From contig NZ_VUKE01000002.1 in assembly GCF_009193175.1 (NCBI RefSeq), forward strand, positions 1 to 64,000: a stretch of 64,000 nucleotides of DNA. Reading direction: 5' to 3'. This DNA is from Georgenia ruanii. GTDB lineage: Bacteria > Actinomycetota > Actinomycetes > Actinomycetales > Actinomycetaceae. The translations under genes and the position numbers were made by a program. The notes under the pieces were generated by a model. It ran no database searches and had not been told where the DNA came from. It saw only the letters and a list, made by a program, of their open reading frames with translations. This document shows positions 5,464 to 39,318 of the stretch, one piece after another (position 1 is the stretch's first letter; the number at the start of each line of letters is the position of its first letter).

Positions 5464-5473
5464 GGGCGTCCTC

Positions 5474-6406
5474 TCAGAACTTGATCTTGACGGTCTTGCT
5501 CAGCCACACCCCGCCCACGACGAGCAGGACGACGGCGAGCCCGATGAGCCCGTAGCCGAGCAGGCTCTGGGTGAACTTGGCGAGGTAGCTGGGGTTGGCC
5601 ACCAGCAGGAACGCGACGATGCCGAACGGCAGCGCCATGAGCACGATCGCGGAGAGCTTGCCCTCGGCGCTCAACGCCTTGACCTGGCGGCGGATCTGGT
5701 TGCGCTCGCGGATGGTGCGGCCCACGCCGTCGAGCACCTCGGCGAGGTTGCCGCCCACCTCCCGGTTGATGGCGATGGCCTGGGTGACCCAGTCGAAGTC
5801 CTCGCTGCCCATCCGGGCGGCGGTCTCGGCCAGCGCCTCGCCGAGCTCGCGGCCCACCCGGGCCTCGTTGATGACCCGGGCGAACTCCTCGGAGGTGGGT
5901 TGCTCGGACTCCCGCGCCACCGAGGCCAACGCCTGCGGGAGGCTGTGCCCCGCCCGCAGGCTCGACGCCATGAGCTGCAGCGAGTCGTCGAGCTGGTCGG
6001 CGAAGGCGGCCTGCCGCTTGCCGACGAGCATCCCCACCCGCACCCGCGCCCCGACGGGCACCAGGGCCGCGAGCACCAGCCCGAGCAGCGGGCCGCCGAG
6101 GACGGTGCCGACCGCGGCGGCCACCACAATGCCCACCACGAGCAACACGAGCAGGTCCTGCGGGCGGGTCTTGATCCCGGCGCGCTCGAGCGCCGCCACG
6201 ACGCCGCCGGCGCGGCGGCGTCGCAGCGCCCGGGCGGCCGCCTCGGTGGTCAGCGCGGCGGCCCCGGCGAGCAGGCCCGGGTTCGGGGCGGCGCCGAGCC
6301 GGCGGCGGTCCAGCGGCAGCCGCGCGGGACGCGGACCGAGGAGCAGGTAGACGGCGACGCCGAGTCCGAGCACGAGGGTGGCGAGGCCCAGCTGGAGCTC
6401 GATCAT
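5474..6406 (-). CDS. tadB: Tad pilus inner-membrane platform protein TadB
   Basis: This is a 310-residue type II secretion F-domain protein. It has an N-terminal helix (LGLATLVLGLGVAVYLLL), a helix pair near the middle, the F domain with LDDSLQLMASSLRAGHSLPQAL and EVGGNLAEVLDGVGRTIRER, and C-terminal membrane helices. ATG 6406 was selected because its first four bases form ATGA with the stop of cpaF (stop 6403-6405), a classical translational coupling. An upstream ATG four codons earlier lies inside cpaF and is less likely. Together with TadC it anchors the pilus assembly motor. Confidence 0.93.
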   Translation of the reverse strand: MIELQLGLATLVLGLGVAVYLLLGPRPARLPLDRRRLGAAPNPGLLAGAAALTTEAAARALRRRRAGGVVAALERAGIKTRPQDLLVLLVVGIVVAAAVGTVLGGPLLGLVLAALVPVGARVRVGMLVGKRQAAFADQLDDSLQLMASSLRAGHSLPQALASVARESEQPTSEEFARVINEARVGRELGEALAETAARMGSEDFDWVTQAIAINREVGGNLAEVLDGVGRTIRERNQIRRQVKALSAEGKLSAIVLMALPFGIVAFLLVANPSYLAKFTQSLLGYGLIGLAVVLLVVGGVWLSKTVKIKF

Positions 6407-8055
6407 CGCAGCGTCCATTCCTCCGGCACGCCGAACACCCGCGGGGAGACGGCGATGCCGAGCTCGGCGAAGCGGTCGGTGAACCGGGGCCGCACGCCGG
6501 TGGGCCGGGTGGTGCCGAGGAAGCGCCCGTCGGGGGCGACGCCCGCGGAGTAGTCGAAGAGGAAGGCGTCCTGGAGGGTGACCGTCTGGCCCTCCATGCC
6601 CTGTACCTCGGTGACGGCGGTGACCCGGCGGGTGCCGTCGCGCAGTCTGGTGAGCTGGACGATGACGTCGACGGCGGAGGCGATCTGCTCGCGGATGGCG
6701 CGCAGCGGCAGGTCCATGCCGGCCATGAGGACGAGGGTCTCCAGGCGGGCGATGGCGTCGCGCGGGGAGTTGGCGTGCACCGTGGACAGCGAGCCGTCGT
6801 GGCCGGTGTTCATCGCCTGGAGCATGTCGAGGGACTCCCCGCCGCGGACCTCGCCGACGACGATGCGGTCGGGCCGCATGCGCAGCGAGTTGCGCACGAG
6901 GTCGCGGATAGTGATCTCGCCCTTGCCCTCGGTGTTGGCCGGCCGGGCCTCCAGGCGCACGACGTGCTCCTGCTGGAGCTGCAGCTCGACGGCGTCCTCG
7001 ATGGTGACGATCCGCTCGCCGTCGGGGATGAACGAGGACAGCACGTTGAGCAGGGTGGTCTTCCCTGTGCCGGTGCCGCCGGAGACGATGATGTTCAGCC
7101 GGGCCTCCACGCAGGCATGGAGCAGCTCGGCCATCTCCGGGCTCATGGTGCCGAAGCGGATCAGGTCGTGGACCTGGAACGGGTCGCGCGCGAACTTCCG
7201 GATGGTCAGCGACGAGCCGTTGAACGCCAGCGGTGGGATGACCGCGTTGACGCGGGAGCCGTCGGCGAGGCGGGCGTCGACGAGCGGGGAAGACTCGTCG
7301 ATGCGCCGGCCGACCTTGGAGACGATGCGCTCGATGATCCGGCGCAGGTGCTCCTCCGAGGCGAACCGCACGGGGCTGCGGGAGAGCTTGCCGTGCTGCT
7401 CGACGTAGACCATCTCCGGGCCGTTGACCATGATCTCGGTGACCGCGTCGTCGTCGAGGAGACGCTGGAGCGGGCCGAGGCCCAGGGCGTCGTCCTGCAC
7501 GTCGCGGATGAGGCGCTTGCGCTCCTCCCCGGTCAGCGGGACCTTCTCCTCCTCGACCACCTGGTTGAGCTCGGCCCGCACCAGCGCGTGCAGCTGCTCC
7601 TCGCTCAGCGAGGGGTCGGTCAGGCGCGCGCCCATGCGCTCGAACAGCGCCGTGGCCGCCCGGTCCTTGAGCCGGCCCAGGGCGTCGCTGGGCGCCGCGG
7701 CGGGCGCGGAGGCCGTGGCGCTCCCGGCGCGGCGACCGGAGAGCGTGGTGCGCTCGGGGGCTGGGGCGGCGACGCCGGCGGGCACGGTCGCACCGCCGGC
7801 CGCGGGCAGACCGGCGGGAGCGGCCGGGGCGACGGGTGGCATCGCGCCGACGGGCACCTCCATCCCGGAGGGCGCGGCAAACGGGCTGCCCGGGCCGGTC
7901 AGCGGGTCCGGGGTGCCGGCCGCCCGCCCACCGGCGCGGTGCGCCGTCGCGCCGTCGTCGGGCGTCGCGAGGGATGAGCCCGCCGGGGCGGCGGCGGACG
8001 GTGTCGGCTCCGCCCCGTGGGTGCCGGCGGCCCGCAGGCGCTGGGCGAGGTTCAT
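6403..8055 (-). CDS. cpaF: Tad pilus assembly ATPase CpaF/TadA
   Basis: This is the secretion ATPase (550 residues) that powers Flp pilus extension. The first 140 or so residues are a low-complexity Ala/Pro/Gly linker, longer than needed for the core. The family core follows: an N-terminal helical domain (LIRDVQDDALGLGPLQRLL), Walker A SGGTGTGKTT near residues 320-330, IVTIEDAVELQL, Walker B MRPDRIVVGEVRGGE near 390-405, and the His-box GHDGSLSTVHANSP. The start overlaps the cpaE stop as TGATG (bases 8053-8057 on the minus strand), so the two are translationally coupled. It is confidently a CpaF-type enzyme and not a conjugation VirB11, given its neighbours. Confidence 0.95.
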   Translation of the reverse strand: MNLAQRLRAAGTHGAEPTPSAAAPAGSSLATPDDGATAHRAGGRAAGTPDPLTGPGSPFAAPSGMEVPVGAMPPVAPAAPAGLPAAGGATVPAGVAAPAPERTTLSGRRAGSATASAPAAAPSDALGRLKDRAATALFERMGARLTDPSLSEEQLHALVRAELNQVVEEEKVPLTGEERKRLIRDVQDDALGLGPLQRLLDDDAVTEIMVNGPEMVYVEQHGKLSRSPVRFASEEHLRRIIERIVSKVGRRIDESSPLVDARLADGSRVNAVIPPLAFNGSSLTIRKFARDPFQVHDLIRFGTMSPEMAELLHACVEARLNIIVSGGTGTGKTTLLNVLSSFIPDGERIVTIEDAVELQLQQEHVVRLEARPANTEGKGEITIRDLVRNSLRMRPDRIVVGEVRGGESLDMLQAMNTGHDGSLSTVHANSPRDAIARLETLVLMAGMDLPLRAIREQIASAVDVIVQLTRLRDGTRRVTAVTEVQGMEGQTVTLQDAFLFDYSAGVAPDGRFLGTTRPTGVRPRFTDRFAELGIAVSPRVFGVPEEWTLR

Positions 8056-9254
8056 CAGGCGCCCACCTTGACGCCGCGGTGGCGGCCGCGCCGCCGGCCC
8101 GGCCGGGCCACGAGGGTCGGCACGCCGGCGAAGCGCTCCACGAGCCGGCCGAGCTGGCGGGTCATCGGGTTCTTCTTGCCGCCCAGCTGCAGCAGGGGGA
8201 TGCCCTGGTTGACCGACGCGGGGACGGCCGGGCAGCGGGGCAGCGTCAGGTCGACGTCGCGGGCGATGGTGGCCTCGACGTCGGCGATGGACAGCCCGCC
8301 CGCCGGGTCCTCGAAGTTGAGCAGCACGAAGCGGCCCTCGGGGAACATGCCGAGGTCGGTGAGGGTGTCGAGCTCCTTGCGCAGCCCGCGCACGCCGGGC
8401 ACGTCCATGCTCGTCAGCAGCACCGGGTCGGTGGTCTGGTCGAGCGCGGCGAGGGTGTGCTCGTTGAGGCCCGGGGCGGTGTCGACCACGACGTACTGGA
8501 ACTGCGAGGCGAGGGCCTGCAGCAGCCGGCCGACGTCGTCGCCGGAGATGCCGTCCGCCGCCGCGGGCGACTCCGGGGCGCACAGCACGTACAGCCCGGT
8601 CTCGTGCAGCGTGAGGAACGTCTTGAGCACCATCGTGTCGCGCCGGGCCGGGTTGTGGACGGCGTCCGCCAGGGAGTACTCGGGGTCCAGGTTGAGGGCG
8701 CTGGCGACGTCGCCGAACTGCAGGTCGAGGTCGACCAGCACGGTCGAGTGCGGCACGGTCCGCGTGAGGCCGACGGCGAGGTTGGTCGCCACGGTGGTCT
8801 TGCCGACGCCGCCCTTGGGCGAGACGACGGTGATGACCTTCCCGGCGGGGCCGGCGTCCGGTGTCAGCGGCAGTCCGGTGGTGGGCGTCTGCGGACGGGC
8901 GAGCTGGGCGGCGCGGGTGAGCGCGTCGCGCATCTCGGCGGCGTCGGCGGCCGGCGTGAGGATGTCGCGCACGCCGGCCCGCATCGCCGCCAGGCCCACC
9001 TCGGCCGGGCAGTCGCTGACGAGCACGACGCCGATGCCGGGGGAGATGGCGGTGAGGCCGGCGGCGACGTCGAGCACCTGGTCGGGAGCGGTGCGCGCGT
9101 CGAGGACGACGACCTCCGGCAGCCCGCCGGCGACGGCGAGCACCTCCCCAGGGGTGGCGGGCAGCTGGGGCAGGGCGACGTACGCGCCCGCGGTCGCCGC
9201 CGCGACGGTGGCGGTGAGCTCGGGGGAGGCGGTGGCCAGCACGACGTGGCTCAT
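8055..9254 (-). CDS. cpaE: Tad pilus localisation ATPase CpaE/TadZ
   Basis: This 399-residue protein joins a receiver-like N-terminal domain (residues 1-110, with PEVVVLDARTAP and GIGVVLVSDCP resembling a response-regulator fold) to a MinD/ParA-like ATPase. The deviant Walker A is SPKGGVGKTT near residues 143-152, followed by VLVDLDLQFGD and VVVDTAPGLNE. In characterised Tad systems this protein places the pilus machine at the pole. A Lys/Arg-rich C-terminal tail could contact membrane or DNA. The start overlaps the cpaB stop by four bases (ATGA). Confidence 0.92.
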   Translation of the reverse strand: MSHVVLATASPELTATVAAATAGAYVALPQLPATPGEVLAVAGGLPEVVVLDARTAPDQVLDVAAGLTAISPGIGVVLVSDCPAEVGLAAMRAGVRDILTPAADAAEMRDALTRAAQLARPQTPTTGLPLTPDAGPAGKVITVVSPKGGVGKTTVATNLAVGLTRTVPHSTVLVDLDLQFGDVASALNLDPEYSLADAVHNPARRDTMVLKTFLTLHETGLYVLCAPESPAAADGISGDDVGRLLQALASQFQYVVVDTAPGLNEHTLAALDQTTDPVLLTSMDVPGVRGLRKELDTLTDLGMFPEGRFVLLNFEDPAGGLSIADVEATIARDVDLTLPRCPAVPASVNQGIPLLQLGGKKNPMTRQLGRLVERFAGVPTLVARPGRRRGRHRGVKVGA

Positions 9255-9997
9255 GGGTACACGTTCTCCTCGGTGACGATGCGGGTGCCGTCGGTGGTGG
9301 CGTCCTCGGACTCCAGGGAGAGCCAGACGGTGCCGTGCTCGGCGCCGAACACGAGGCGTTCGGCGTCCGGCGGGTTGACGGCCAGGGTGACCATGACGGC
9401 CCCGGTGGGGGCGACGTCGGGCCCGGCGGCCGCGTCGCCGTCGGCGACGGCGGCCGTCCCACCCTCGGCCTCTGGCGGGGGCGCCACGCCGCCCTGCACG
9501 GCGGTGACGAGCACCTTGTCCAGCGTCAGGCGGGTGCGGGCCGGGTCGGTGAGCGAGACGAACACGCCCACGATGTCGCCGGGCCGGACCCGCCCGCCGA
9601 CGACCCGGCTGGGGTCCAGGAGCACCGAGACCTGGTGCATGCCGGTCGGCATCTCGACCGCGCCCGTGTCGACCATGGCCGGGTCGGCGAACCGGGCGGC
9701 GAGGAGCTGTTCGCCGACCTGCAGGTCGGTGGTCGCGACCTGCCCGGCGAGGTCGTCCAGCGTGCTCAGCGCGCCGCCGGCCACGGCCGTGGCGGGGAGT
9801 TCCTTGACGGCGACGGCGTCGCCGAGCTGGTCCGCGGGGGTGCCCTGGGGGACGGGCCGGGTGATCACGAGGACGCGGACGGGCTCCATGCCGGCCATGG
9901 CGCGCTGGTCGGCGCCGGCTACGTAGGCGAGCACGAGGGCGCCGCCGAGGACGGCAAGGACGATCGCCGCGAGGGCGGCGAGGACACGACGTTTCAC
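9251..9997 (-). CDS. cpaB: Flp pilus assembly protein CpaB/RcpC
   Basis: This is a 248-residue CpaB/RcpC protein: one N-terminal membrane anchor (LAALAAIVLAVLGGALVLAYV), then an SAF domain beginning VRVLVITRPVPQG and containing LQVGEQLLAARF, then an RcpC-type region with GRVRPGDIVGVFVSL. It acts outside the membrane in pilus biogenesis. In diderms it partners with the RcpA secretin; no secretin gene is present here, as expected for a monoderm. It starts with GTG 9997, ten bases after the tadG-like stop, and its stop overlaps cpaE. Confidence 0.9.
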   Translation of the reverse strand: MKRRVLAALAAIVLAVLGGALVLAYVAGADQRAMAGMEPVRVLVITRPVPQGTPADQLGDAVAVKELPATAVAGGALSTLDDLAGQVATTDLQVGEQLLAARFADPAMVDTGAVEMPTGMHQVSVLLDPSRVVGGRVRPGDIVGVFVSLTDPARTRLTLDKVLVTAVQGGVAPPPEAEGGTAAVADGDAAAGPDVAPTGAVMVTLAVNPPDAERLVFGAEHGTVWLSLESEDATTDGTRIVTEENVYP

Positions 9998-10007
9998 GAT
10001 GTCTCGT

Positions 10008-10997
10008 TCACTCGGTGAGGGCGACGACGGACGCGCCCAGGTTGGGGGCGGTCGCGCCGTAGCGGAAGGCGTCGGAGAGGTCGACGAACTCGACGAACTG
10101 GCCGCTGATGCAGGTGTTGACGGTTTTAGGGCACTTGACGCCCCACGAGCCGCTGCCGTGTCCGACGAATTCGTAGCCGCGGAGGTTGAAGGCGGCGTAG
10201 CCGATGATGTCGAACCAGGCGTTGTTGCCGGTGCCGCCGTAGTCGTTGTAGATCGGTAGCAGCACCGTGGCGTTCTGCAGCGCCTGGATGTCGGTCGACC
10301 CGCACTCGGACGGCAGGGAGTTTCCGGGGTCGGAACCTTCCACGTTGGTGCCGATGGCGCTGGTGGTCTGGCACGTGCCCGGTTTGGTCTTGAGCCAGCC
10401 GAAGCCGCCGGGGACGGGGTTGCCGGAGTTCGTTCGCTTGCAGGGCCAGTCGGCCGGGAGTCCCGTCTTTTCGAGGTCCTTCGAGCGCAGGATCGTCAGG
10501 ACGACCGGGCTCGAGGACGTCAGGCTGCCGCCCTGACGCTTGATCTGGGCCTCCAGCTCGCACTTGTGCAGGGCCAGGGGCAGGACCGCCGTCCCGCCGG
10601 TGGGCCGGCCCCAGGAGGCGGTGGCGCGCGCGCCGAGGGGGGTGCTGTCCGCGCCGATCACCGGCGCGAACCAGTGCTGACGGACACCGGAGGTCTGGAC
10701 GGTCACGCGGCCCGAGGCCGGGGTGAGGCCCGGGGTCACGACCTGGCCCCGAACGTCTTCGTCCTCGACGTTAGCCTCGGCCATGCGCTGGGCGGTGAGG
10801 GCTGGTGTGCCGCAGTTGCCGTGGGCGCAGTCCTGGGCGATGGCCAGTGCCGCCGCGTCGGCCCCGGTCTGGAGCTGCTGGCGCTCGGCCCACATGGCGG
10901 CCACGTCGATCGAGATGGCCGCGAAGCCGATGAGCGGGATGGCGAGCAGCGCCACGATGACGTTGACCGCCCCGCGCTCGTTCCTCAGCCGTGGCAT
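10008..10997 (-). CDS. tadG: TadG-like pseudopilin/pilus tip protein
   Basis: This 329-residue protein has a TadE/TadG N-terminus: RNERGAVNVIVALLAIPL followed by the rest of one transmembrane helix, then the typical ADAAALAIAQDCA continuation. The remaining 270 residues are extracellular and contain about nine cysteines, suggesting disulphide bonds. The C-terminal region is not one I can assign to a named domain. Start ATG 10997 lies within the last codons of tadE (13-base overlap) with AAGGGG upstream. It is probably a minor pilin or surface-exposed pilus component. Confidence 0.85.
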   Translation of the reverse strand: MPRLRNERGAVNVIVALLAIPLIGFAAISIDVAAMWAERQQLQTGADAAALAIAQDCAHGNCGTPALTAQRMAEANVEDEDVRGQVVTPGLTPASGRVTVQTSGVRQHWFAPVIGADSTPLGARATASWGRPTGGTAVLPLALHKCELEAQIKRQGGSLTSSSPVVLTILRSKDLEKTGLPADWPCKRTNSGNPVPGGFGWLKTKPGTCQTTSAIGTNVEGSDPGNSLPSECGSTDIQALQNATVLLPIYNDYGGTGNNAWFDIIGYAAFNLRGYEFVGHGSGSWGVKCPKTVNTCISGQFVEFVDLSDAFRYGATAPNLGASVVALTE

Positions 10998-11374
10998 CGC
11001 ATGGTCCCCTTCCCGGTGAGCGTGAGGTCGGCACCGAACAGGCCGGTGAGGAAGCGTATGGGGTAGGTGACGGTGACCGTGGCGGTCGCCGTCGGCGCGG
11101 ACGACGTGGTGACGCAGGTGGTGGGCGTGACCCGAATCTGGCTGTCCTTCAGGGAGAGCTCCGGGGCATAGGCCCGGACGGTCTCGCGGGTGCTCGTCAC
11201 GCTGTTGTGCAGGGCCATCACGCGCACCCCTTCCCGGGCGGCGCCCGAGAGGGTGGTCTGGAGGTGGTAGGCCCGGCCGAACTCGGCGATGCCGACAACG
11301 AGGAGGAGTAGCAGGGGGAGGACCAGGGCGAACTCGACGGCGGCCGAGCCGCGGTCGCGCTGCTTGCGGCTCAC
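10985..11374 (-). CDS. tadE: TadE-like minor pilin
   Basis: This is a 129-residue TadE-family protein. After a short basic leader comes RGSAAVEFALVLPLLLLL, with the conserved Glu-Phe pair expected after a prepilin-type Gly/Ser-Ala cleavage point, then about 80 extracellular residues with two cysteines. GTG 11374 was chosen because GAGGGAG lies five bases upstream; a longer in-frame version to 11476 has no ribosome site and adds non-pilin residues. Processing would need a TadV-type prepilin peptidase, which is not encoded in this window. Confidence 0.87.
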   Translation of the reverse strand: MSRKQRDRGSAAVEFALVLPLLLLLVVGIAEFGRAYHLQTTLSGAAREGVRVMALHNSVTSTRETVRAYAPELSLKDSQIRVTPTTCVTTSSAPTATATVTVTYPIRFLTGLFGADLTLTGKGTMRCHG

Positions 11375-11477
11375 CGTGTCTCCCTCAAACCGATTTCCGG
11401 TGACCTCCCATGCGCCTACGAGCGGCGACCCGGTGCGCGGTCGAGCAGAACCGACGCACCGGATCGCCCTAGGCATG

Positions 11478-11693
11478 TCAGGCCGCCTTGGCCTTGGTCA
11501 GTTCGGTCGAGACGTTGTTGAAGAGCTCCTTGAGCTGGCCGCCGAGAGCCGTCACGGCAACGATGATTGCGACGGCGATGAGGCCGACCATGAGGCCGTA
11601 CTCGACGGCGGTGGCGCCCCGGTCGTTCCGGCCCTCGAAGCGGCCCTGGACGACGTGGAACATGGAGAGCAGGAAAGCGGCTGCACGGTTCAT
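11478..11693 (-). CDS. flp: Flp family type IVb major pilin
   Basis: This is a 71-residue Flp pilin, the likely structural subunit of the pilus. It has the hallmark sequence RGATAVEYGLMVGLIAVAI: cleavage after Gly would leave Glu at +5 and Tyr at +6, both typical of Flp pilins. The mature part is one hydrophobic helix and a short tail (KELFNNVSTELTKAKAA). The leader is long, at about 30 residues. Start ATG 11693 is preceded by AGGAAG at a normal distance. As the first gene of the operon it is separated from tadE by about 100 bases, which may allow extra pilin expression. Confidence 0.94.
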   Translation of the reverse strand: MNRAAAFLLSMFHVVQGRFEGRNDRGATAVEYGLMVGLIAVAIIVAVTALGGQLKELFNNVSTELTKAKAA

Positions 11694-12086
11694 GTTGATC
11701 TTCCTTGGCTTGGCGCTCCGGATGCCCGGACCGCGGACTGCGCCAGATCGGTCGATCCGGCGGCTGCGACCAAGGTGGCAGACGTTTGCGCGTTCGGCAA
11801 GAGTTCCGGCTAGGTTGAGTTGCATAGCCCGCAAAAACGCTTCGGTAGCGGTTCGCGCATCGTTGCTGGACGTCAACGGCCGTCGAACATGGCTAAGTGG
11901 CGCCCGAAATGTCATGGCCCTATCGCCAGGTGTGGGGCTCGAGAGCGTTGCGGCTCTGGTGCGGATGTGGCTCGGAGAGGGGTCGCGGACGCTAGGCTGT
12001 GGCCACCATCACATCCTGAATGCCTCATGTGCCGACCTTGAAGCGAAAACCTGCGTTGTCGGCAAGCTCGCGGATTAGGCATGCCC
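11694..12086. other. Intergenic region between flp and tetR
   Basis: About 390 bases separate the divergent flp and tetR genes. Base composition is visibly less GC-rich than the flanking genes. I looked on both strands for a further gene, a c-di-GMP-type riboswitch core and sigma-70 elements and found nothing convincing apart from the tetR -10 and a small near-palindrome (bases 12076-12088) in front of tetR. The flp promoter must lie here. An unusually long flp leader RNA is possible. Confidence 0.6.
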
Positions 12087-12092
12087 TAGGGT
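12076..12092 (+). promoter_or_regulatory. Leaderless promoter and near-palindrome of tetR gene
   Basis: TAGGGT at 12087-12092 fits TANNNT, and exactly seven bases separate it from ATG 12100, the geometry of a leaderless transcript. Just upstream, TAGG-CATG-CCCTA forms an imperfect palindrome overlapping the -10, a natural place for the TetR protein to repress its own gene. Confidence 0.5.
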
Positions 12093-12099
12093 GTGGCGC

Positions 12100-12738
12100 A
12101 TGACGGCGACGGAGACGACGGTGAACGAAGCCCCGGAGATGGGTCTGCGCGAGCTCAAGAAGCAGATGACCCGGGAGGCTCTCGCGGACGCCGCGCTCCG
12201 GCTCACCGGGGAGAAGGGTCTCGACAACGTCACCATCGAGGAGATCGCCCGCGCCGCCATCGTCTCCCCGCGCACCTTCTCGAACTACTTCTCCTGCAAG
12301 GAGGAGGCGGTCGTGACCGCCGGCGCGGCCGACCCCGCCGTGATCGTCGCAGCCTTCCTCGCCGTCGCCGACTCCGAGCCCCCGCTCAAGGCGCTGTGCC
12401 AGGTGCTCTCCGACCACGCCAGCTCCAAGACCGCCGACCAGCTCCGCGTCATGGTCGAGAAGATGGAGCTCGTGCAGCGCTACCCCTCGCTCCTGCCGTT
12501 CCAGTCGGCCCAGTACGACCGGCTGGAAGAGGGGCTGCGCGGCGCCGTGGCCGAAAGGACCGGCACGCAGCCGGACACCGACGTCTATCCCTGGCTCGTG
12601 GCGGGTGCCGCGGTGTCCTGCCTCCGATCGGCCCTGCAGCTGTGGGCGCACGCCGGCGACGACGCCGGGCGCCTCGCGCCGTTCATCCAGGACGCCTTCA
12701 ACCAGGTCAGCGCCGGCCTGCCGGTCCCGCAGCGCTGA
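12100..12738 (+). CDS. TetR family transcriptional regulator
   Basis: This is a 212-residue TetR repressor. The DNA-binding domain spans about residues 20-68 with the helix-turn-helix VTIEEIARAAIVSPRTFSNYF. The remainder is the helical ligand and dimerisation domain, with no ligand recognisable. ATG 12100 was chosen because there is no Shine-Dalgarno but a TANNNT -10 sits seven bases upstream (leaderless). It is divergent from the Tad operon and 200 bases upstream of the LanC-like gene on the same strand, so either could be its target. A hairpin follows the stop, favouring a separate transcript for the LanC-like gene. Confidence 0.88.
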   Translation: MTATETTVNEAPEMGLRELKKQMTREALADAALRLTGEKGLDNVTIEEIARAAIVSPRTFSNYFSCKEEAVVTAGAADPAVIVAAFLAVADSEPPLKALCQVLSDHASSKTADQLRVMVEKMELVQRYPSLLPFQSAQYDRLEEGLRGAVAERTGTQPDTDVYPWLVAGAAVSCLRSALQLWAHAGDDAGRLAPFIQDAFNQVSAGLPVPQR

Positions 12739-12751
12739 CGCTGCCGGCCGA

Positions 12752-12781
12752 ACGGCGACACGGGACCGCGCGGGTCGCCGT
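12752..12781 (+). terminator. Hairpin after tetR
   Basis: An 8-bp stem (ACGGCGAC with GTCGCCGT) and a 14-base loop begins 14 bases after the tetR stop. No T-run follows, but GC-rich actinobacterial terminators often lack one. It would separate tetR from the LanC-like gene. Confidence 0.5.
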
Positions 12782-12939
12782 CTGGCACGTTCCGGCCATG
12801 GCAGCACCCTGTCACCTCTGAACGGCTCCACCCCCCACCGCGTGGGGCAGCATGTCGTCATCACATTCGTCGGCCGAGGCCGGTGAACACGAACCCGGCT
12901 GCTGGGGCGGAGCACCGGGCATGGCGAAGGAAGTCACCC

Positions 12940-14193
12940 ATGTCTGTCCCGTCCGTCCGCGTGCCGGTCGCCGACCTGCCCGCCACGACGCTCCGAGGTG
13001 TGCGACCGGCCGAGGTCACGCCCCTCACCCGGCGCTCGGCCGTTCGGGTCACGTGCGACCGTGGCGAGCGCGACGCCGTCGGCGGGCTGCTGCCGTGGGC
13101 TCGCAGCGCCCGGGAACGGCGCGACCCGGTCATCAACCTCGCCGACGTCGAACGGCGCCACCAGCTCGTGGCCGGCTTCGCCGGCGGCATCGCGGTCGCC
13201 GCCCAGGCGGACGCCGAGCTGCTCGCGGGCGACCTGTGCACGGCGCAGTCCCTCGGTTTCGCCGGAGGCATGGCGGGGGTGCTCTGGGCGCTCGCCGAGG
13301 TGGGCGGACACGTCCCCGACGCGCTCGCGGCCTCGCTCGCCGCGGCCGCCGACCGCATGCCGCTCGACGCCGGGCTGGCGCACGGGCGCAGCGGTGTGGC
13401 GCTCGCGCTCGACGCCCTGGGACACCACGACGCCGCCGCCCGCCAGTGGGCCGCCGTCGAGCGGACGGATCCCGAGGCGCTCGGGCTCACGCTCGCCGAC
13501 GGCCTGCCCGGCGTCGGCCTCGCCCTGCTCGAGCGTGCCCCCATCCGCGACGGCGAGGCGCTCCTTGCGCGCGTGGAGATGCTGGCCCGCACGCTCGCGG
13601 ACCAGCTGCGCGAGGAGCCGCGGATGGACCGGCTCGGCCTCATGCGCGGCGGCGCGGGGGCGGCGCTGTTCCTGCTGCACGTCTACGACCTGACCGAGGA
13701 CGAGTCCCTGCTGGCGGCCATCGAGCGGTGCCTGCGCCACGACCTCGCCATCCTCGGCTGGGGCTCGTTCGGCCGGCACGCCGCGCTGCCGCTGTGGTCG
13801 CGGCCCGGCTCGCTGAGCGAGGGCAGCATCGGGGTCGGCGTGGTGCTCCACCAGGCGATGCAGCACCTGGACGCCCCCTGGGTGGCCCGGGCCGCCGCGG
13901 ACATCACCGAGGCCGCCGAGCGGTGGCTGCTCGAGCGGCCCGGCCTCTCGAACGGGCGGGCCGGCGCGATCCTCGCGCTGCAGTACCTGCGCTCCCACCC
14001 GTGGGAGACGGCGGAAGAACGGTTCGCGCGCATGCGGCCCTTCCTGGAGCCGCTGACCGTGCACGGGTCTGCCCTCGGCAGCGAGCCGTCCGCCCCGGTG
14101 TCCCTGAGCCTCGACGGCGGCGCGGCGGGGATCCTGCTGGCGCTCGGCCACCTCGGGATGGCGGGGGACCGACGGCTGCCGTTCTTCTGGTGA
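12940..14193 (+). CDS. Stand-alone LanC-like (class III cyclase-type) protein, paralogue 1
   Basis: This 417-residue protein folds, by pattern, as a LanC-type alpha/alpha barrel: seven Gly-rich repeats occur near residues 108, 150, 188, 237, 294, 338 and 393 (for example GFAGGMAGV, LADGLPGVG, LSNGRAGAI, SLDGGAAGI). The Cys-Cys-His zinc ligands of ordinary LanC enzymes are absent; the only cysteines are at 39, 100 and 264. This resembles the zinc-less cyclase domain of class III LanKC synthetases, but no lyase or kinase domain is attached or nearby. The extreme C-terminus is Phe-Phe-Trp. ATG 12940 has AAGGAAG six bases upstream. It is clearly paralogous to the gene at 34112-35272. Function is unknown. 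Confidence 0.8.
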   Translation: MSVPSVRVPVADLPATTLRGVRPAEVTPLTRRSAVRVTCDRGERDAVGGLLPWARSARERRDPVINLADVERRHQLVAGFAGGIAVAAQADAELLAGDLCTAQSLGFAGGMAGVLWALAEVGGHVPDALAASLAAAADRMPLDAGLAHGRSGVALALDALGHHDAAARQWAAVERTDPEALGLTLADGLPGVGLALLERAPIRDGEALLARVEMLARTLADQLREEPRMDRLGLMRGGAGAALFLLHVYDLTEDESLLAAIERCLRHDLAILGWGSFGRHAALPLWSRPGSLSEGSIGVGVVLHQAMQHLDAPWVARAAADITEAAERWLLERPGLSNGRAGAILALQYLRSHPWETAEERFARMRPFLEPLTVHGSALGSEPSAPVSLSLDGGAAGILLALGHLGMAGDRRLPFFW

Positions 14194-14196
14194 GCC

Positions 14197-14221
14197 GGTG
14201 GTGAGCGGGCACCTCACCGCC
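14197..14221. terminator. Convergent terminator hairpin
   Basis: GGTGGTGAG pairs with CTCACCGCC (9 bp, one G-U, seven-base loop) in the short gap between the LanC-like gene and the convergent M23 peptidase gene. It may serve both strands. Confidence 0.45.
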
Positions 14222-14235
14222 GCGCTCCGCGCTAC

Positions 14236-15753
14236 TCAGCCCAGCGGCGCCCCACGGCCGGCCATGAACGGCTCGGGGTCGACGTGCCGGCCGTTCTCGT
14301 ACACCCCGAAGTGCAGGTGGCACCCGGTGGAGTTGCCCGAGTCGCCCACCAGCGCGATGACCTGGCCGGCGGCGACGTGGTCGCCGGAGCGGACGAGCAC
14401 CCCGCCGGCGTCCATGTGGTTGTAGGACGTCTCCACGCCGCCGCCGTGGTCGACGAACACGACCCGCCCGGTCAGGCCACGGAACGGCCCGCCCGCGTAG
14501 GTCACCACGCCCTCGGCGGCGGCGTAGATGGGCGTGCCGCAGGCGGCGGCGAGGTCCGTGCCGGCGTGGAAGTGCGCGCCCTCCCCGCTGCCGCCCTCGC
14601 CGCCGGCGAGCACCCGGGGCCCGTAGCGCGAGCTCACCGGGGCGTCGAGCGGGGCGAGCCACTGGCCGGTGCCGAACGCCGCCGGCCGCACGCTGCTCGC
14701 CATCAGGCAGGTCAGCGCCCCGGCGCCCGGGCCGGGGGCGGCCGAGAGGTTGATGTGCGGGTGGTCCATGTGGTTCGCCGTCGGGCCGCCGCGGTCGTCC
14801 ATGGGACGCCAGCCGTCCTGCGGCGAGGCGGCGAACCAGATGCGCTGGCGCCAGATGATGTAGTCCACTCCCAGCCGCTGAGCGTTGGCGATCGCATAGT
14901 CGACGATCGCGTCCCCCTTGGCGGCGTCGTCGCCCACCATGAAGTCCAGCGCCAGCCCGGCCGGGTGGCCGCCGCTGTCGACGGCGTTCTCCCGGTACCC
15001 GCCGATCTCGGCGACGGCGAAGCGCTGCCCGATCTCCGCGGCCACCGCGGCGGTGTGCGGGGCGACCGGGCCGAGGTTGTATCCGCCAGCGGGCACGGCC
15101 GGGGTGGCGCCCGCACCCGACGGCTGGGCGGCGGGCGGCGGCCCGGCCGGGGGCGCCGTCTGGCCGCCCGGCACCCCGGCGAGCGCGGCCACCACGGCCA
15201 CGGCGTCGGCCCAGAACTTGGCGTAGTGGCCCGGGTCGGCGTTGCGCTGCACCCGGTTGGCCGCCAGGGTCGGCTCGAGCCCGCGCCAGCCCTCCACCCG
15301 GTCGAGCGCCCGGAAGAACAGCCGGGCCGAGCGTTCCGGCGTCATCCGGTCGGCGTAGCTGCCCCAGTTGTCCTGCTGCTGGAACAGCCCGACCGAGGTG
15401 GTCGGCCGCCCGTCCGGGTTGGTCACCCCGCGCACGGCGTCGCCGAAGGGCAGGTTGCGCAGCGACGACTCGCCCATCGCCGTCATCACCGCGATGGTCT
15501 GCCCCCACGGATCGAACCCGAGCTCCTTGCCCACCCGCAGGATGGTGGCCGCGTTCTGCAGCTGCTCCCCGGCGTACCCGGCCACCTCGCCGTCGGGCAC
15601 CCCCGCGACGTCGACGCCGGACCCGCCCGGCTGGCACCACGCCTGCGGCCGGTTGCTCAACCCGGCCCCGACGAACAGCACCAGCGCCATCCCCGCGCCG
15701 CCCAGCAGCGCCAGGGCGACGACGGCGGCGAGCAGCTTGCGCACCTCACCCAC
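14236..15753 (-). CDS. Bifunctional lysozyme-like/M23 cell-wall hydrolase of the T4SS-like locus
   Basis: This is a 505-residue exported hydrolase with three parts. After an N-terminal membrane anchor (residues 6-30) comes a region resembling a lysozyme-like transglycosylase (AVMTAMGESSLRN, TTSVGLFQQQDNWG). A middle domain with LALDFMVGD and HMDHPHINLS matches the ARB_07466-like type. The C-terminus is an M23 metallopeptidase with the zinc motifs HFHAGTDLA and HLHFG. In actinobacterial conjugation systems such a protein opens peptidoglycan for the channel. GTG 15753 overlaps the lipoprotein stop by eight bases; GTG 15744 is an alternative start. Confidence 0.85.
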   Translation of the reverse strand: MGEVRKLLAAVVALALLGGAGMALVLFVGAGLSNRPQAWCQPGGSGVDVAGVPDGEVAGYAGEQLQNAATILRVGKELGFDPWGQTIAVMTAMGESSLRNLPFGDAVRGVTNPDGRPTTSVGLFQQQDNWGSYADRMTPERSARLFFRALDRVEGWRGLEPTLAANRVQRNADPGHYAKFWADAVAVVAALAGVPGGQTAPPAGPPPAAQPSGAGATPAVPAGGYNLGPVAPHTAAVAAEIGQRFAVAEIGGYRENAVDSGGHPAGLALDFMVGDDAAKGDAIVDYAIANAQRLGVDYIIWRQRIWFAASPQDGWRPMDDRGGPTANHMDHPHINLSAAPGPGAGALTCLMASSVRPAAFGTGQWLAPLDAPVSSRYGPRVLAGGEGGSGEGAHFHAGTDLAAACGTPIYAAAEGVVTYAGGPFRGLTGRVVFVDHGGGVETSYNHMDAGGVLVRSGDHVAAGQVIALVGDSGNSTGCHLHFGVYENGRHVDPEPFMAGRGAPLG

Positions 15754-16384
15754 CCGCCGGCTCGGCGTGCTGCACCAGCCAGGGCGCGCCGGCGGCGGTG
15801 CGGGTGAGGGTGACGACGTAGTCGCCCGCGTCGGTGCCGACGACGACGGTCGCCACGTACGCCGACGGCCCGTCCTGCGCGGCGGCGGTGCCCGTCACCG
15901 CGGAGGCCGGCACGTTCCGCGGGTCGACGGCGGCGTAGTAGTCGCGCGCCTCGGGCGCCATGAACGGCTGGATGCCGGCGAGCCAGTCGCGGGCGGGCAG
16001 GTCCGGCCGGGCGAAGGCGCGCATGAACGCCACCGCCTGGCTCTCGGCGTCGCGCTTGGCCGCCTCGTCCCAGACCGGGGGCGTGTGGTTGGCCTGGTCC
16101 TGGCCGGACAGGTCCTCCATCGGCGCGCCGGCGGTGGGGGAGGCGGACGGCGAGGAGGTGACGGTCGCCGTCGCCGGCGGGCTCGGTGGTGGCGGCTCCG
16201 GGGACGACGCGCACCCGCTGAGCAGGGCGGCGCCGAGCGCGAGGGCGACGGTGCCGGCGCGCAGGACCGGCTCGCGGGGCCCGCTTCCGATCGCCCCGCG
16301 GGTCTCTCTCGCGCCGGCCGCGGGGCCCGGCGCGAGGTCCGCCGCGGCGCCAACCGCGCCGTCGGCCCTACCTGCGCCCGCCAC
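15746..16384 (-). CDS. Putative lipoprotein of the T4SS-like locus
   Basis: This protein of up to 212 residues has a signal region and lipobox (ALLSGC, Cys near residue 56), a Pro/Ser/Thr-rich linker, and a compact C-terminal domain (residues about 95-212) with a predicted alpha+beta pattern similar in size to NTF2-like or VirB8-like folds. That similarity is a guess from context. The N-terminus before the signal is unusually long (about 35 residues); no better ATG or GTG exists closer to the lipobox, so ATG 16384, overlapping the ATPase stop by 17 bases, was kept. It is probably a periplasmic-side partner of the secretion channel. Confidence 0.65.
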   Translation of the reverse strand: MAGAGRADGAVGAAADLAPGPAAGARETRGAIGSGPREPVLRAGTVALALGAALLSGCASSPEPPPPSPPATATVTSSPSASPTAGAPMEDLSGQDQANHTPPVWDEAAKRDAESQAVAFMRAFARPDLPARDWLAGIQPFMAPEARDYYAAVDPRNVPASAVTGTAAAQDGPSAYVATVVVGTDAGDYVVTLTRTAAGAPWLVQHAEPAGG

Positions 16385-18014
16385 GGGTCATGGCCTCGTC
16401 GGTGTTGGTCAGGCCCGTCTCGAAGGCCGAGCGGATGTGCTCGACCATGACCTCCGGGTCCCGGCCCCGCTTGAAGAGGTGGAAGCCGTCGCCGAGCGCG
16501 GGCAGCGTCGCGGCCAGGCCGGGCTCGAAGCCGAAGTCGTGCACCACCCGGTCGATGTCGTCGGCGCGGGACTGGCGGTAGCAGTGCACGGTCTGGGCCT
16601 CCTGCAGCACCGTGAGGGCGGGGGAGTCGACCGGGATGTCGGCGATCTTGTGGATGGCGACGACCAGGGCCAGGCCGAGGCCGCGGGCGAGCTTGGTGTT
16701 GGCCCGCATGAGCTGGGCGTTGGGCCCGCCGACCAGGTGCCAGCCCTCCTCGGCGATGAGGTTGGTGAACCGGCCGCGCTCGCGGCGCAGCGTGCCGAGC
16801 AGCCACATGTTCGCGATCGCCATGACGGTCGGCACCGCGGGGCCGTCCTCGGGCAGCTGGGAGACGTCGAAGCTGGTGAGCTTCTCGCCCAGGGACACCC
16901 ACGGCGAGGTGGGCCCGTCGAAGATGCCCGAGTACTCCTCGAGCAGCCCGTCGAGCAGGAAGCGCACGCCCAGGCCGGCCTCGTGCAGCCGCTCCAGGGC
17001 CCCCGGGGTGAGATCGGCATAGGCGGGGTCCTCGGCGGCGTGGCCGGCCTGGGAAAGGACGTCGGGCAGGACCGGGATGCGCTCGTCGGCCTCGGCGGCG
17101 CGCATGGCCAGGCGGTAGGCGCTGCGCAGCGCCTCGCGCTCCCACGGGTCCAGCGGGGCCCCGCCCTGGGCGAGCTCGGCGGCCACCTGGAGCAGGTGCG
17201 CCTGGTTCTTCGCGCCGGTTCCGCCGGTGATGATCGGATCGAGCAGGTTGAGCACGGTGCCGCCGGGCTCGAGGGAGAAGCGCATCGGCGCGGCGCCGTA
17301 GCGCTCGACCAGCGCGCAGTACTCGCCCTCGCCGCCGCGGTCCTTCTTGTCGAAGATCACCGACCGGCGTCCGGCCAGGGTGAGCGGGCGCAGCACGTAG
17401 ACGGTCTTGAGCAGGCTCGACTTCCCGGCGCCGATGTCGCCCAGGACGAGGACGTTGGGGGAGGAGACCAGCCCCTTGGCGTAGGCGGTGAACGGGTCGT
17501 GCGCCACGACGGCGTTGGACAGGCAGTCCCGCCCGATCGCCACCCCCTCGGCGTCGGTGGGGGCGGCGACCACGGCGGTGTTGAGCACCTCCGCCTGCCG
17601 GGTGGTGGTCGGGGCGCCGCGGTGCAGCGGGGCGTAGTAGCCCCGGCGGGCGCGGCGCAGCCTGGGCCGGGCGGGCCAGCCGCGGGCCTCCCACGGCGGT
17701 CGGCCCTCGCCCTCGCCGGGGGCGGACACCGGGGCGCGGAAGATGTTGCGGCGCTTCTTCGCCGGCGCGATCGGGGCCGACGGCTCCGCCGGCGCGCCTG
17801 CGTTCGCCGGCGCGGTCGCTGCGCCATTGCTCGACGCCGGCGAGGCGAGCGGCGGCGCAGCTGAAGTCGCCGGGGCCGTGTCCTCGGACCCTCGAGCTTT
17901 CGACGGGGCCTTGAGGTCGGTGCCGGCCTCCGCCGGAGCCGCATCCGGCGAGGCGGCGGACGTTGTTGCGCTATCCCCGGCGTCAAGGCGCGGGCTGCGG
18001 CGGAACCGGCTCAC
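16368..18014 (-). CDS. VirB4/TraC-like secretion ATPase
   Basis: This is a 548-residue ATPase of the VirB4/TraG-like HerA superfamily. The first 110 residues are low complexity (Ala/Pro/Ser). The ATPase domain carries Walker A GDIGAGKSSL near residues 190-200, SVIFDKKDRGGEGEYC after it, and Walker B FTNLIAEEGWHLVGG near 415. The family is the central motor of type IV secretion systems. Here it is shorter than full VirB4 and lacks an N-terminal partner domain; that portion may be supplied by the adjacent SCO6880-family protein. GTG 18014 and the previous stop share GTGA, showing translational coupling. Confidence 0.85.
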   Translation of the reverse strand: MSRFRRSPRLDAGDSATTSAASPDAAPAEAGTDLKAPSKARGSEDTAPATSAAPPLASPASSNGAATAPANAGAPAEPSAPIAPAKKRRNIFRAPVSAPGEGEGRPPWEARGWPARPRLRRARRGYYAPLHRGAPTTTRQAEVLNTAVVAAPTDAEGVAIGRDCLSNAVVAHDPFTAYAKGLVSSPNVLVLGDIGAGKSSLLKTVYVLRPLTLAGRRSVIFDKKDRGGEGEYCALVERYGAAPMRFSLEPGGTVLNLLDPIITGGTGAKNQAHLLQVAAELAQGGAPLDPWEREALRSAYRLAMRAAEADERIPVLPDVLSQAGHAAEDPAYADLTPGALERLHEAGLGVRFLLDGLLEEYSGIFDGPTSPWVSLGEKLTSFDVSQLPEDGPAVPTVMAIANMWLLGTLRRERGRFTNLIAEEGWHLVGGPNAQLMRANTKLARGLGLALVVAIHKIADIPVDSPALTVLQEAQTVHCYRQSRADDIDRVVHDFGFEPGLAATLPALGDGFHLFKRGRDPEVMVEHIRSAFETGLTNTDEAMTRGGRR

Positions 18015-19621
18015 AGCGCCTCCCTCGCCCCGTGCCCGCTGAGCGAGCGCATCATCCGCTGCGCCGTGGTGGGCGCCGGCGGGCGCATGCCGCGGACGAT
18101 CGGCCACGTGCACCCCGACGCCGCCGCCTGGTAGGTGTCCAGCCACTCCAGCCGCTCGATGCCCAGCCCCCGCTCCGCCGTCGCCGTGACCAGGCGCACC
18201 GCCTGGGCGAGCTCCTCGCGGGAGGGCGCGGAGACGGTGAGGTGCCCGAGCCACTCCGCGCCGTGGTGCTGGGTGCCGGGGCGCAGGTCCTCCAGGCGGC
18301 GTTGGGCGGCGGAGAGGGACGCCTCGCTCTCGTCGTCGAGCAGCCGGCCCGCCTCGCGCCGCCGCAGGATCTCGGAGTGGTCGCTGGTGGCGTCGAGGCG
18401 GGCGGTGGCCTTGGCCTCGCGGGCCGGCACCATCCAGGTCTGCAGCGACAGGGTGCGCACGATCCGCTCGGGCATCCCCGACAGCAGCGGCGTCACCCAC
18501 AGGCTGTTGCGTTCGCCGGTGGCCATCGCCTTGGCGGTGACCAGCGCGGTGCGGTGCCACCACCGCACGGGTTCGCCGGTGGAGGGGTCGACGTCATCGA
18601 CCACGTGCGCGGAGTAGGCGTCGGTGCCCGCCAGGCCGAGGGCGTCGGGGTCGACGTCGTGCGTCTGGTCGACGGGCCGCGAGGGGTTTTGCATGTGGGC
18701 GATGACCGCGGCCGCCTCGTGCGCGGTCAGCGCCCGCACGCGCCCCATCCGCGCCCGCCGCAGGCCGCGGGTGATCGCGTCGACCTCGTGGTCCATGAGG
18801 CGGCGCCAGCCGTCGCGGCCGGGCCCGTAGCGCGCGGCGGCGCGGGAGAAGGCGCCGGTGAGCGGCCAGCGCACCGCGACGTAGTGGCGCTGGGCCATCT
18901 CGCGCCGGCCCATCCGGTGCAGCAGGTCGTCGTAGGAGCGCAGCAGCTCCTCCGGGGCGTCCGGGTCCACCTGCGAGACCACCCAGGCCTCGTGCCCGGC
19001 GGAGTCCGGCGGGAGCACCCGGCTGAGGCTCTGGACCGCGCGGGCCAGGGAGTCCTCGCTGCCGAGGGAGGCGAGGAACGCCCCCCACGCGACCTGGGAC
19101 TGCTCGACGGCGTGCTCGGACTCGATCCCGCGGACCTGCCCGGAGACCTCGAAGGCCACCGACAGGTACGGCTCCTCGCCCGTGGGCGCGTGCCAGGCGA
19201 TGCCGGGCCGGCCGGGCCGCTTGTCCAGCCAGCCCAGGCCCTCGGCGCCGTCGGGGCGCTCGCGCAGCGCGGCCGCCTCCCGCGCGGCGGCGCGCCGGTG
19301 ACGTCGCCGGGCGCCGAGCTCGTGCCAGCGGGCGTCGTCGAAGGGCGCGTAGGCCACCGTGCCGGTGCGGGTGCGCTCCTTCCACCGCCGCCGCGCCACC
19401 CACCGCTCGGCCAGCGAGCCGTGCACGGTCGGGGACGTGACCAGCCAGGTGACGATGACCAGCGCGGCGCCGACGGCGAAGCCCGGCGTCCCGAGGGTGA
19501 TGGTCAGCACCATGCCGGCGACGGCCGCGGCCAGCAGCGCGAACAGCCGGCTGTGCGGGACCGAGCCGCCGAGGAAGCTCCGGTGGCCGCTCTCCCCGCC
19601 GAGGATCGACGTGCGGGTCAT
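18011..19621 (-). CDS. SCO6880-family T4SS component
   Basis: This 536-residue protein of the SCO6880 type, named after the Streptomyces coelicolor gene, sits next to VirB4-like ATPases in actinobacterial type IV secretion loci. Two N-terminal membrane helices (residues about 27-62, ALLAAAVAGMVLTITLG and VGAALVIVTWLV) resemble the PrgI/VirB3 component. The long cytoplasmic remainder resembles the N-terminal half of VirB4, so this and the following ATPase gene together may make one complete VirB3-VirB4 unit. The start overlaps the previous stop as ATGA. No catalytic motif is visible in this half. Confidence 0.8.
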   Translation of the reverse strand: MTRTSILGGESGHRSFLGGSVPHSRLFALLAAAVAGMVLTITLGTPGFAVGAALVIVTWLVTSPTVHGSLAERWVARRRWKERTRTGTVAYAPFDDARWHELGARRRHRRAAAREAAALRERPDGAEGLGWLDKRPGRPGIAWHAPTGEEPYLSVAFEVSGQVRGIESEHAVEQSQVAWGAFLASLGSEDSLARAVQSLSRVLPPDSAGHEAWVVSQVDPDAPEELLRSYDDLLHRMGRREMAQRHYVAVRWPLTGAFSRAAARYGPGRDGWRRLMDHEVDAITRGLRRARMGRVRALTAHEAAAVIAHMQNPSRPVDQTHDVDPDALGLAGTDAYSAHVVDDVDPSTGEPVRWWHRTALVTAKAMATGERNSLWVTPLLSGMPERIVRTLSLQTWMVPAREAKATARLDATSDHSEILRRREAGRLLDDESEASLSAAQRRLEDLRPGTQHHGAEWLGHLTVSAPSREELAQAVRLVTATAERGLGIERLEWLDTYQAAASGCTWPIVRGMRPPAPTTAQRMMRSLSGHGAREAL

Positions 19622-20979
19622 CGGGCGGCTCCCGGCTTGCGGTGGCGATGGTGCGCGACGGCGGAGGTGGCGCCGGGTGCGGCGCCATCCGGGCCGCCGG
19701 GCGCGGCGCCGTCGGGTGGTGCGGCCGTGGCGCCTGCAGAGCCCGGCTCGGCGCCGACCGCCGGGCTGCCCGCAGGCGCAGCACCGGCGGTCGTGGTGCC
19801 CGTGGCCCCGTCAGGGGTGGTGCCGGTCCCGCCGCCGGGGCCGCTGGGCGTCGCGGGGTCGTCCGGGCCCTCCTCGCGGGACTGCTGGGCCATGGCGGCG
19901 CGCTGCACCGGGCCCGGCTCGGGCGGCGCGGGGCGCCCGTGGACGGTGTTGGACAACAGGGGGAGGAGCGTCGCCGTGCCGTCGAAGGTCGCCGATCCGC
20001 CCAGGGACAGCGGCCGGTTCGCCTGCAGCCGGGCCACCCGGGCGATGGAGGACTCCCCGGTGGGCCCGGGTCCGGTGCGTGCCGCGGCCGTCGTCCCGCC
20101 GGTGCCGGGCAGGTCCGGGGCGGGCGCCGGGCGCAGGCTGAGCAGGGCGACCGGGGCGAGGGCGGCGAGGATCATCGCCACGGCGGCGGCGGTGAGGTTG
20201 GCGAGCTGCTCGATGCGCGGGTCGGTGGACAGCCAGCGGGTCTGGGCGGCGGTCATCCGCAGCGTCAGGCCGACGAGGAAGAACAGCAGCGGCTTTGCGG
20301 CCAGGATCGTCACCCACGCCAGCACCATCCGGGTGCCGGTGCGCCGGTGTGCCGGGTCCACCAGCCACACCAGGGCCAGCGGCACCAGCGCGCCGGTGAA
20401 GTACAGCGTCACCATGGCCACGACCAGCACCAGCGCCACGAGCAGCAGCCCGAGCAGCATGAGGCTCATGGCGAGCAGGGCGACGACGCCGCCGCCGACC
20501 ACCCCGCTCGGCTCGGTGGCGTCGATCATCGCGGTGAGGTTCGCGACGGCGCCGGTGACCGACCCGCCGGCGGCCCAGTCGATGAGCGACTGGCTCAGCG
20601 CGCCGAAGAAGCGCACCACCACCCATCCGGCCGCGGGCCCGTAGATCGCCCCGCCGAGGAAGAGGACGGAGTAGGTGGTGAAGGACTCGAGCAGCTCGTG
20701 TCCGGTGATGAGGCGCCGGGCGGCGCGCACGACGTTCCACAGCAGCAGCACCGCCCACAGGAAGATGGCGGCGGCGAAGGAGATCCGGTAGGCCTCGAGG
20801 AACCAGTTGGCGCTGAGGTCCGGCTGGGTGGCGTTGAGCAGCCAGGGCAGCAGGTCGCTGGCCAGGCCGTGCGCCGCCTCCTTGATGTTGGCGAACAGGA
20901 ACCCGAGCGGGTCGACGTCGAAGGAGACCACCGGCGCCGGGGGCGGGGGGACGGTGGCTCCCAGGACGCCGGCCGTCAC
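19618..20979 (-). CDS. VirB6/TrbL-like polytopic membrane protein
   Basis: This 453-residue protein has about six to seven membrane helices between residues 60 and 290 and a long Gly/Pro/Thr-rich hydrophilic C-terminal tail (about 300-453). Size, topology and position next to VirB4-type ATPases match VirB6/TrbL channel proteins of type IV secretion systems. GTG 20979 has GGAG seven bases upstream. The stop overlaps the next gene as ATGA. The tail has no recognised domain. Confidence 0.75.
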   Translation of the reverse strand: MTAGVLGATVPPPPAPVVSFDVDPLGFLFANIKEAAHGLASDLLPWLLNATQPDLSANWFLEAYRISFAAAIFLWAVLLLWNVVRAARRLITGHELLESFTTYSVLFLGGAIYGPAAGWVVVRFFGALSQSLIDWAAGGSVTGAVANLTAMIDATEPSGVVGGGVVALLAMSLMLLGLLLVALVLVVAMVTLYFTGALVPLALVWLVDPAHRRTGTRMVLAWVTILAAKPLLFFLVGLTLRMTAAQTRWLSTDPRIEQLANLTAAAVAMILAALAPVALLSLRPAPAPDLPGTGGTTAAARTGPGPTGESSIARVARLQANRPLSLGGSATFDGTATLLPLLSNTVHGRPAPPEPGPVQRAAMAQQSREEGPDDPATPSGPGGGTGTTPDGATGTTTAGAAPAGSPAVGAEPGSAGATAAPPDGAAPGGPDGAAPGATSAVAHHRHRKPGAAR

Positions 20980-21012
20980 GTCGGGACTCCGGTGCTCATC
21001 CGCGCGCTCCCG

Positions 21013-34040: not shown

Positions 34041-34120
34041 CCCCGTGCGCGTCACCAGAAGCCCGTGCGCGTCGCCAGGACCCCGTGCGCGTCACCAGAG
34101 GCCCGGGTGCCTCACCAGAA
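34041..34120. repeat. Four 20-bp tandem repeats covering the end of LanC-like gene 2
   Basis: Units 34041-34060, 34061-34080, 34081-34100 and 34101-34120 share the pattern CCCCGTGCGCGTCACCAGAA with one to six differences. The last unit contains the final codons and stop of the LanC-like gene on the minus strand, so the gene end has been copied outward. Confidence 0.75.
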
Positions 34121-39121: not shown

Positions 39122-39275
39122 GGAAGGGCTCCTGGGGTGTCGATGGGGGCCGGCGCCCGGTGGGCCGGACGCCGGCGGTGGGAGAGCGGGGGTGGGCCGC
39201 CGGCAGCGGGTGGCTGCCGGCGCCCGCCCGTAGGGATGGGCCGGGGCGCCGCGGGCGGTGGGCCCGGGATGGCGC

Positions 39276-39303: not shown

Positions 39304-39318
39304 GGGCGGTCGGGTGGC

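Follow-up and report, generated by a model that had tools for sequence, protein, structure and literature searches.

A stand-alone class III LanC-like protein of Georgenia that probably shares an operator-like site with a regulator and a small cysteine peptide

The closest described relatives of the protein discussed here are the cyclase domains of class III synthetases (LanKCs), which, according to PMC10604976, are metal-independent and contain no zinc. In the same study, Ser726, Phe770 and Asp771 of the synthetase ThurKC stand at the zinc-ligand positions; the variants F770A, D771A and D667A gave no labionin product, S726A and S608A still did, and Phe, Tyr or Met followed by Asp occupied positions 770/771 in 87.5% of eight models. 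Another point of reference is CA_C0082 of Clostridium acetobutylicum, which resembles LanM but lacks zinc and serves Agr quorum sensing as an effector (PMC10301443). Finally, PMC10036551 counts LanKC/LanJC pairs and YcaO among the secondary genes of daptide clusters.

Our analysis concerns a 64,000-nucleotide stretch of the Georgenia ruanii genome (the window), in which the gene at 12940–14193 on the forward strand encodes a stand-alone LanC-like domain of the class III (LanKC) type, 417 residues long and ending in RLPFFW, as judged from its reading frame, profiles and a structure model. The frame starts with an ATG preceded by AAGGA, and two other genomes keep the same ATG (gene calls throughout come from a home-made codon-usage caller). 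The initial annotation had described a LanC-like protein with seven Gly-rich repeats beside a TetR regulator, and had seen neither a kinase nor a lyase domain in it. All of this holds. The protein belongs to the LanC-like superfamily by its match to Pfam LANC_like (E 3e-14; 52.8 bits, cut-off 23.2), and its neighbor at 12100–12738 (forward strand) is a TetR-type regulator (TetR_N, 7e-11) with an MftR-like C-terminal domain (1.2e-15). Seven Gly-rich repeats can be recognized by eye at about residues 109–113, 149–152, 188–191, 237–240, 295–298, 339–342 and 393–397, and no kinase or lyase family of Pfam or NCBIfam matched the frame at E 1. The top NCBIfam match is class III LanKC, over positions 489–833 of 833 (E 2.3e-48); class IV LanL and class II LanM rank below it, both matching via their cyclase parts. 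With only the cyclase domain present, the protein scores 165 bits on the full LanKC profile, whose cut-off is 575.

Searched on its own against solved sequences, the protein finds just five chains up to E 1. Two, each of 871 residues, are annotated as protein kinase domain-containing proteins (E about 4e-4); the other three are class III chains of ThurKC (E 0.07–0.08 in this single-sequence search). A profile built from the 18 copies described below finds 16 chains, including ThurKC (2.5e-8), LANCL1, LanCL2, SalKC and NisC. The initial annotation had proposed structure prediction as a check, and the AlphaFold2 model (eight sequences; pTM 0.75, mean pLDDT 73) indeed gives a LanC-type barrel, mostly alpha-helical outside residues 1–62 and 414–417, where pLDDT is below 50. 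Foldseek ranks CuvL, ThurKC and SalKC first, followed by LanCL2, GCR2, LanCL1 and the nisin cyclase, with moderate TM-scores of 0.50–0.60 (class III synthetases 0.53–0.60 to the query).

The residues at the would-be active site can be read from an alignment of the family profile, in which the spacing of the ThurKC residues agrees with the published numbering. At ThurKC positions 726, 770, 771, 667 and 608 the window copy has S293, S337, N338, R236 and T184. The Cys-Cys-His ligands of class I zinc LanC enzymes are thus missing, as had been noted at the outset, with S293, S337 and N338 in their place, and the Phe/Tyr/Met and Asp of active class III cyclases are replaced by S337 and N338. An ordinary zinc LanC with misread residues, one of the two cases that had been named as fatal to the initial annotation, is ruled out by the LanKC profile match and the aligned residues together: the gene encodes a cyclase domain of LanKC type, not a zinc LanC stripped of its zinc. 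Because class III cyclases are metal-independent, the absent zinc site is by itself no mark of retirement. Moreover, two related LanKCs from two genomes of the same family (L055 and L056) have Leu-His at F770/D771. These positions thus vary even among true LanKCs, and a loss of activity in the window copy is likely rather than certain. The second copy in the window has T and R at these two positions. The window copy is most likely a non-catalytic barrel that binds a peptide or protein. The initial suggestion of a retired cyclase with a binding or signaling role is partly supported: LanKC descent, the changed residues and the operator-like site described below fit it, the lack of zinc is no argument for it on its own, and the binding role would follow by analogy.

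LanC-like copies occur in nine of nine Georgenia genomes, one to three in each and 18 in total, all open. These stand-alone copies form one clade (support 99/99), whose placement beside the LanKCs of the two same-family genomes is a weak node (61/28). The last two residues are FW in 14 of the 18 and LW in one. The G. thermotolerans orthologue is 86% identical to the window protein. The source genome holds three copies, the third on a different contig. The second, at 34112–35272 on the reverse strand, is the clear paralogue that had been noticed 20 kb from the window gene; it is 38% identical to the window protein. No more than 10 nt separate its start from the point where the upstream gene ends; its start codon is uncertain (ours was chosen among candidates, whereas the gene caller took 35152). 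Next to it lies a gene for a 151-residue protein (35278–35733, reverse strand) that matches neither Pfam nor NCBIfam families at E 0.01 and whose structure model has a pLDDT of 40. Homologues of this protein adjoin a LanC-like gene in three genomes (the window, L053 and L054). Next to this pair, at 36208–40290, are genes that by eye resemble a tripartite tricarboxylate transporter and a DapA-like enzyme. Two further contexts of LanC-like genes are found, one at L042 and one at L051 and L052.

One could also argue that the gene is a decaying remnant of a lost lanthipeptide or daptide cluster with no present function, given that partner domains and catalytic positions have been lost and that the copies diverge unevenly in the tree. 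We consider this very unlikely. Its dN/dS is 0.28 to L040 (416 codons) and 0.44 to L041 (387 codons), hence it is a maintained gene. Against decay also stand the open frames of all 18 copies and the conservation of the upstream motif and of the neighbors.

This motif was first seen as a single conserved block when the intergenic region between the TetR and LanC-like genes was compared in three genomes. It is an operator-like repeat, TGGCAnGTTnCTGCCATGGCA, found upstream of 15 of the 18 LanC-like genes, and in eight loci it is mainly this block of 20–30 nt that the upstream regions have in common. The window copy has it as TCTGGCACGTTCCGGCCATGGCAGCA at 12781–12806 (forward strand), 134 nt before the start codon, with 31.4–31.7 bits against a best background of 15.9–16.9 bits in 480 kb; no other site in the window reaches 10 bits except the overlapping reverse read. 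Within 317 kb of LanC loci, counting either strand, the strict pattern TGGCAnGTnnnnGCCA occurs 14 times and always between genes: 13 times ahead of a LanC-like gene (twice at L042) and once between TetR and flp at L041. The 480-kb background, which consists of 400 kb of one contig of genome G000 and loci L078–L082, holds one match (L134). As a matrix, the motif scores at least 22 bits upstream of these 15 of 18 LanC-like genes, which between them represent all nine genomes; the site at L042 lies about 530 nt before a called start codon that is uncertain. Upstream of the three copies with the 151-residue partner, the second window copy included, the matrix gives at most 7.1 bits and thus no site. 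At L053 a match of 18.9 bits falls within an unrelated gene; this match and the one in the background weigh slightly against the motif.

Does the TetR neighbor control the window gene? The gene could be a local effector of the surrounding Tad/Flp-type region, with the shared motif as a relic of duplication. The pair of TetR and LanC-like genes and its surroundings are conserved in three genomes (the window, L040 and L041), by eye within a Tad/Flp-type region, and at L041 (9893–9918, genome G008) the motif also stands between flp and TetR. The corresponding flp/TetR regions of the window and of L040 have no site, however (3.2 and 2.6 bits), and the motif precedes LanC-like genes in nine of nine genomes, while TetR lies beside a copy in only three. 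In addition, the motif recurs at a region that is not paralogous, that of the regulator and peptide discussed next. Control by TetR therefore seems quite unlikely to us; TetR as a common controller is not supported, and the TetR neighbor is not the general link. Separately, we note that the pair is bordered, at 4558–21309 of the window, by genes that read by eye as Tad/Flp-type and as a VirB4-like ATPase, and that its nearest genes are kept in the three genomes.

In each of the nine Georgenia genomes, a single locus (hereafter the core locus) combines a LanC-like gene with a TrmB/LuxR-type regulator and a CxxCWP-type peptide. The regulator was assigned by Pfam at L004 and L046; that of L044 has 322 residues. 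The peptide is 45–52 residues long, with a signal-like start, Sec-type by eye; in the source genome this conserved small Cys peptide lies beside the third copy. Scoring the neighbors of homologues for small frames, as had been proposed initially, thus did lead to a peptide at one LanC-like locus in all nine genomes. The initial statement that no precursor or partner lies nearby agrees with the window copy, next to which no small gene was called; the Cys peptide lies beside the third. The peptide of L004 matches no NCBIfam family, and elsewhere in the order the peptide pattern has 15 matches, of which, judged by eye, only that of G000 looks like a small signal-sequence peptide. In another genus, small signal-peptide-like frames ending in SWDWPK (L091:2836–3009 and L097:986–1126) are encoded divergently from relatives of the TrmB/LuxR-type regulator; their coding scores under the Georgenia model are low.

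To ask whether the core locus shares the motif, we used a matrix trained on 11 sites upstream of LanC-like genes only, so that the nine intergenic regions between regulator and peptide were unseen (the interval of L044 was set by hand). Six of the nine score 23.5–27.1 bits, above all 1,870 background windows, which overlap. The weak ones are L043 (16.6 bits), L048 (14.5) and L046 (11.8), which two, two and four background windows equal or exceed. The regulator is the best candidate for binding the motif, because it is present in nine of nine genomes and its own promoter region bears the motif in at least six. A single regulon accounts for this most simply: since the core locus shares the operator-like site found upstream of the window gene, that gene is probably a member of a regulon with the TrmB/LuxR-type regulator of the core locus at its center.

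The core locus also bears on an alternative, a split lanthipeptide-like pathway in which the LanC-like proteins are working, metal-independent cyclases and act together with a methyltransferase on the CxxCWP peptide, or on a different one, ahead of its export. A methyltransferase of a peptide-modifying family exceeds the daptide-type cut-off in seven of the nine genomes and always adjoins the LanC-like gene. All seven copies next to it retain His or Asp at the D771 position, as against none of the 11 others (Fisher 3e-5; L054 has a gap), but since the copies are related, the tree yields just three independent pairs, all agreeing (p 0.25). The Cys peptide lies within the same locus in all nine genomes. 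On the other hand, a profile search for the RamC_N lyase domain found it in none of the nine (one control genome gave a match), so the enzymes searched for, class V not among them, offer no known source of dehydroamino acids. The LanM and LanB dehydratases were likewise found in none, a weak negative as no control matched. The peptide begins with what looks like a Sec-type signal sequence, and the window copy lacks the equivalents of F770, D771 and D667. We regard such a pathway as unlikely.

In the source genome, no LanKC match exceeds the cut-off among 14; three of these are the LanC-like copies and most others cover kinase positions. A daptide cluster, defined by its methyltransferase and metalloprotease, is not found either, at the core locus or elsewhere in the genome, as the daptide protease stays below its cut-off in nine of nine. 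Four of its five strongest weak matches belong to a different arrangement, seen in four Georgenia genomes (L078:9152–12518, also L079, L081 and L082; L080 is a variant): two peptides of 61–68 residues with an ELLPxRETL-like motif, a protein of 865–946 residues that weakly matches the daptide-type M50 protease, and a gene for a regulator-like protein (by eye) of 254–266 residues.

Outside the genus, the order (198 genomes) yields matches in nine additional genomes, in open frames of 751–1442 codons, and the phylum (396 genomes) yields 11 matches in another nine, in frames of 873–1133. Such long frames are as expected of full synthetases. L055, the one match checked in this way, scores 866 bits on the LanKC profile (cut-off 575) and is a complete synthetase. 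Scoring was confined to the top candidates of each genome (at most nine in the order and four in the phylum), so that stand-alone copies outside the genus could have escaped. The methyltransferase family of the core locus also adjoins the full-length LanKC in the two same-family genomes. In genome G145 (L055:5739–13824), of another genus, this LanKC lies by profile with a daptide-type methyltransferase, metalloprotease and precursor and with YcaO; the genes of G075 (L056:5786–13856) were assigned by homology. These clusters suggest a source of the pair of LanC-like and methyltransferase genes.

Our preferred explanation is that the window protein is a LanKC domain that lost its partners, became a member of the regulon of the core locus, and likely acts as a binding effector; we put the probability of this whole at roughly 0.53. 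It would go back to the cyclase part of a class III enzyme, perhaps from a daptide-type peptide cluster. The lyase and kinase domains would have been lost in the ancestor of Georgenia and the remaining domain duplicated within the genus, the copies next to the methyltransferase keeping His or Asp at the proposed general base of ThurKC and the window copy losing it. Encoded on another contig, the regulator would act on the candidate site at 12781–12806 and so on transcription of the window gene. The CxxCWP peptide, presumably secreted, or its state may be the signal, read by the regulator, which would also control itself. The LanC-like proteins would be the outputs, the window protein by analogy binding a ligand rather than cyclizing it. 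The peptide may also be unconnected with the LanC-like protein. Of these elements, the fold family, the descent, the residue changes, the gene sets across the genus and the sharing of the motif are observed, while binding of the motif by this regulator, secretion of the peptide and its role as signal, and the ligand of the barrel are inferred. More tentatively, one can imagine a possible genus-wide peptide-signaling system of Actinobacteria in which the secreted peptide and its divergent regulator, through one operator, govern several scattered class III cyclase domains, retired from catalysis and acting as effectors that bind peptides.

These results bear on the role of bacterial LanC-like proteins that no longer make lanthionine. 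The question is now directly testable, since each genome offers a single operator-like motif, a single candidate regulator and a single candidate peptide for its one to three LanC-like copies, and cultured type strains of the genus exist. The literature on Georgenia lanthipeptides and on TrmB/LuxR-type regulators with secreted peptides, surveyed at listing level, yielded nothing on these proteins, and neither did that on peptide pheromones and LanKC pseudoenzymes. The operator-like motif common to the LanC-like genes and the regulator/peptide locus is new here.

How does the protein compare with known systems? Like eukaryotic LanCL1 and LanCL2, which it matches in fold, it is a stand-alone LanC-like barrel outside lanthipeptide synthesis; LanCL proteins retain the zinc site, unlike the window protein. 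With the cyclase domains of ThurKC, CuvL and SalKC it shares the LanC-type barrel, the lack of zinc ligands and the best profile and fold matches, and it differs from them in standing alone, in a genus where RamC_N was not found, and in its changed equivalents of F770, D771 and D667. The methyltransferase recalls daptide biosynthesis (the MpaM family; PMC10036551), whereas the daptide protease has no counterpart above cut-off and the L004 peptide matches no NCBIfam family. The nearest precedent is CA_C0082. It too is zinc-less, resembles a lanthipeptide synthetase and is linked to a locus of regulator and peptide, while the other parts of a lanthipeptide pathway are missing. CA_C0082 is of class II origin and belongs to Agr, whereas the Georgenia system is of class III, pairs a TrmB/LuxR-type regulator with a signal-sequence peptide, and is known from sequence alone; the shared motif hints at a similar role as a quorum-sensing effector. 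If the reading as a signaling system is true, lanthipeptide synthetases of two different classes would have been recruited for signaling independently of each other, first in CA_C0082 and now in Georgenia.
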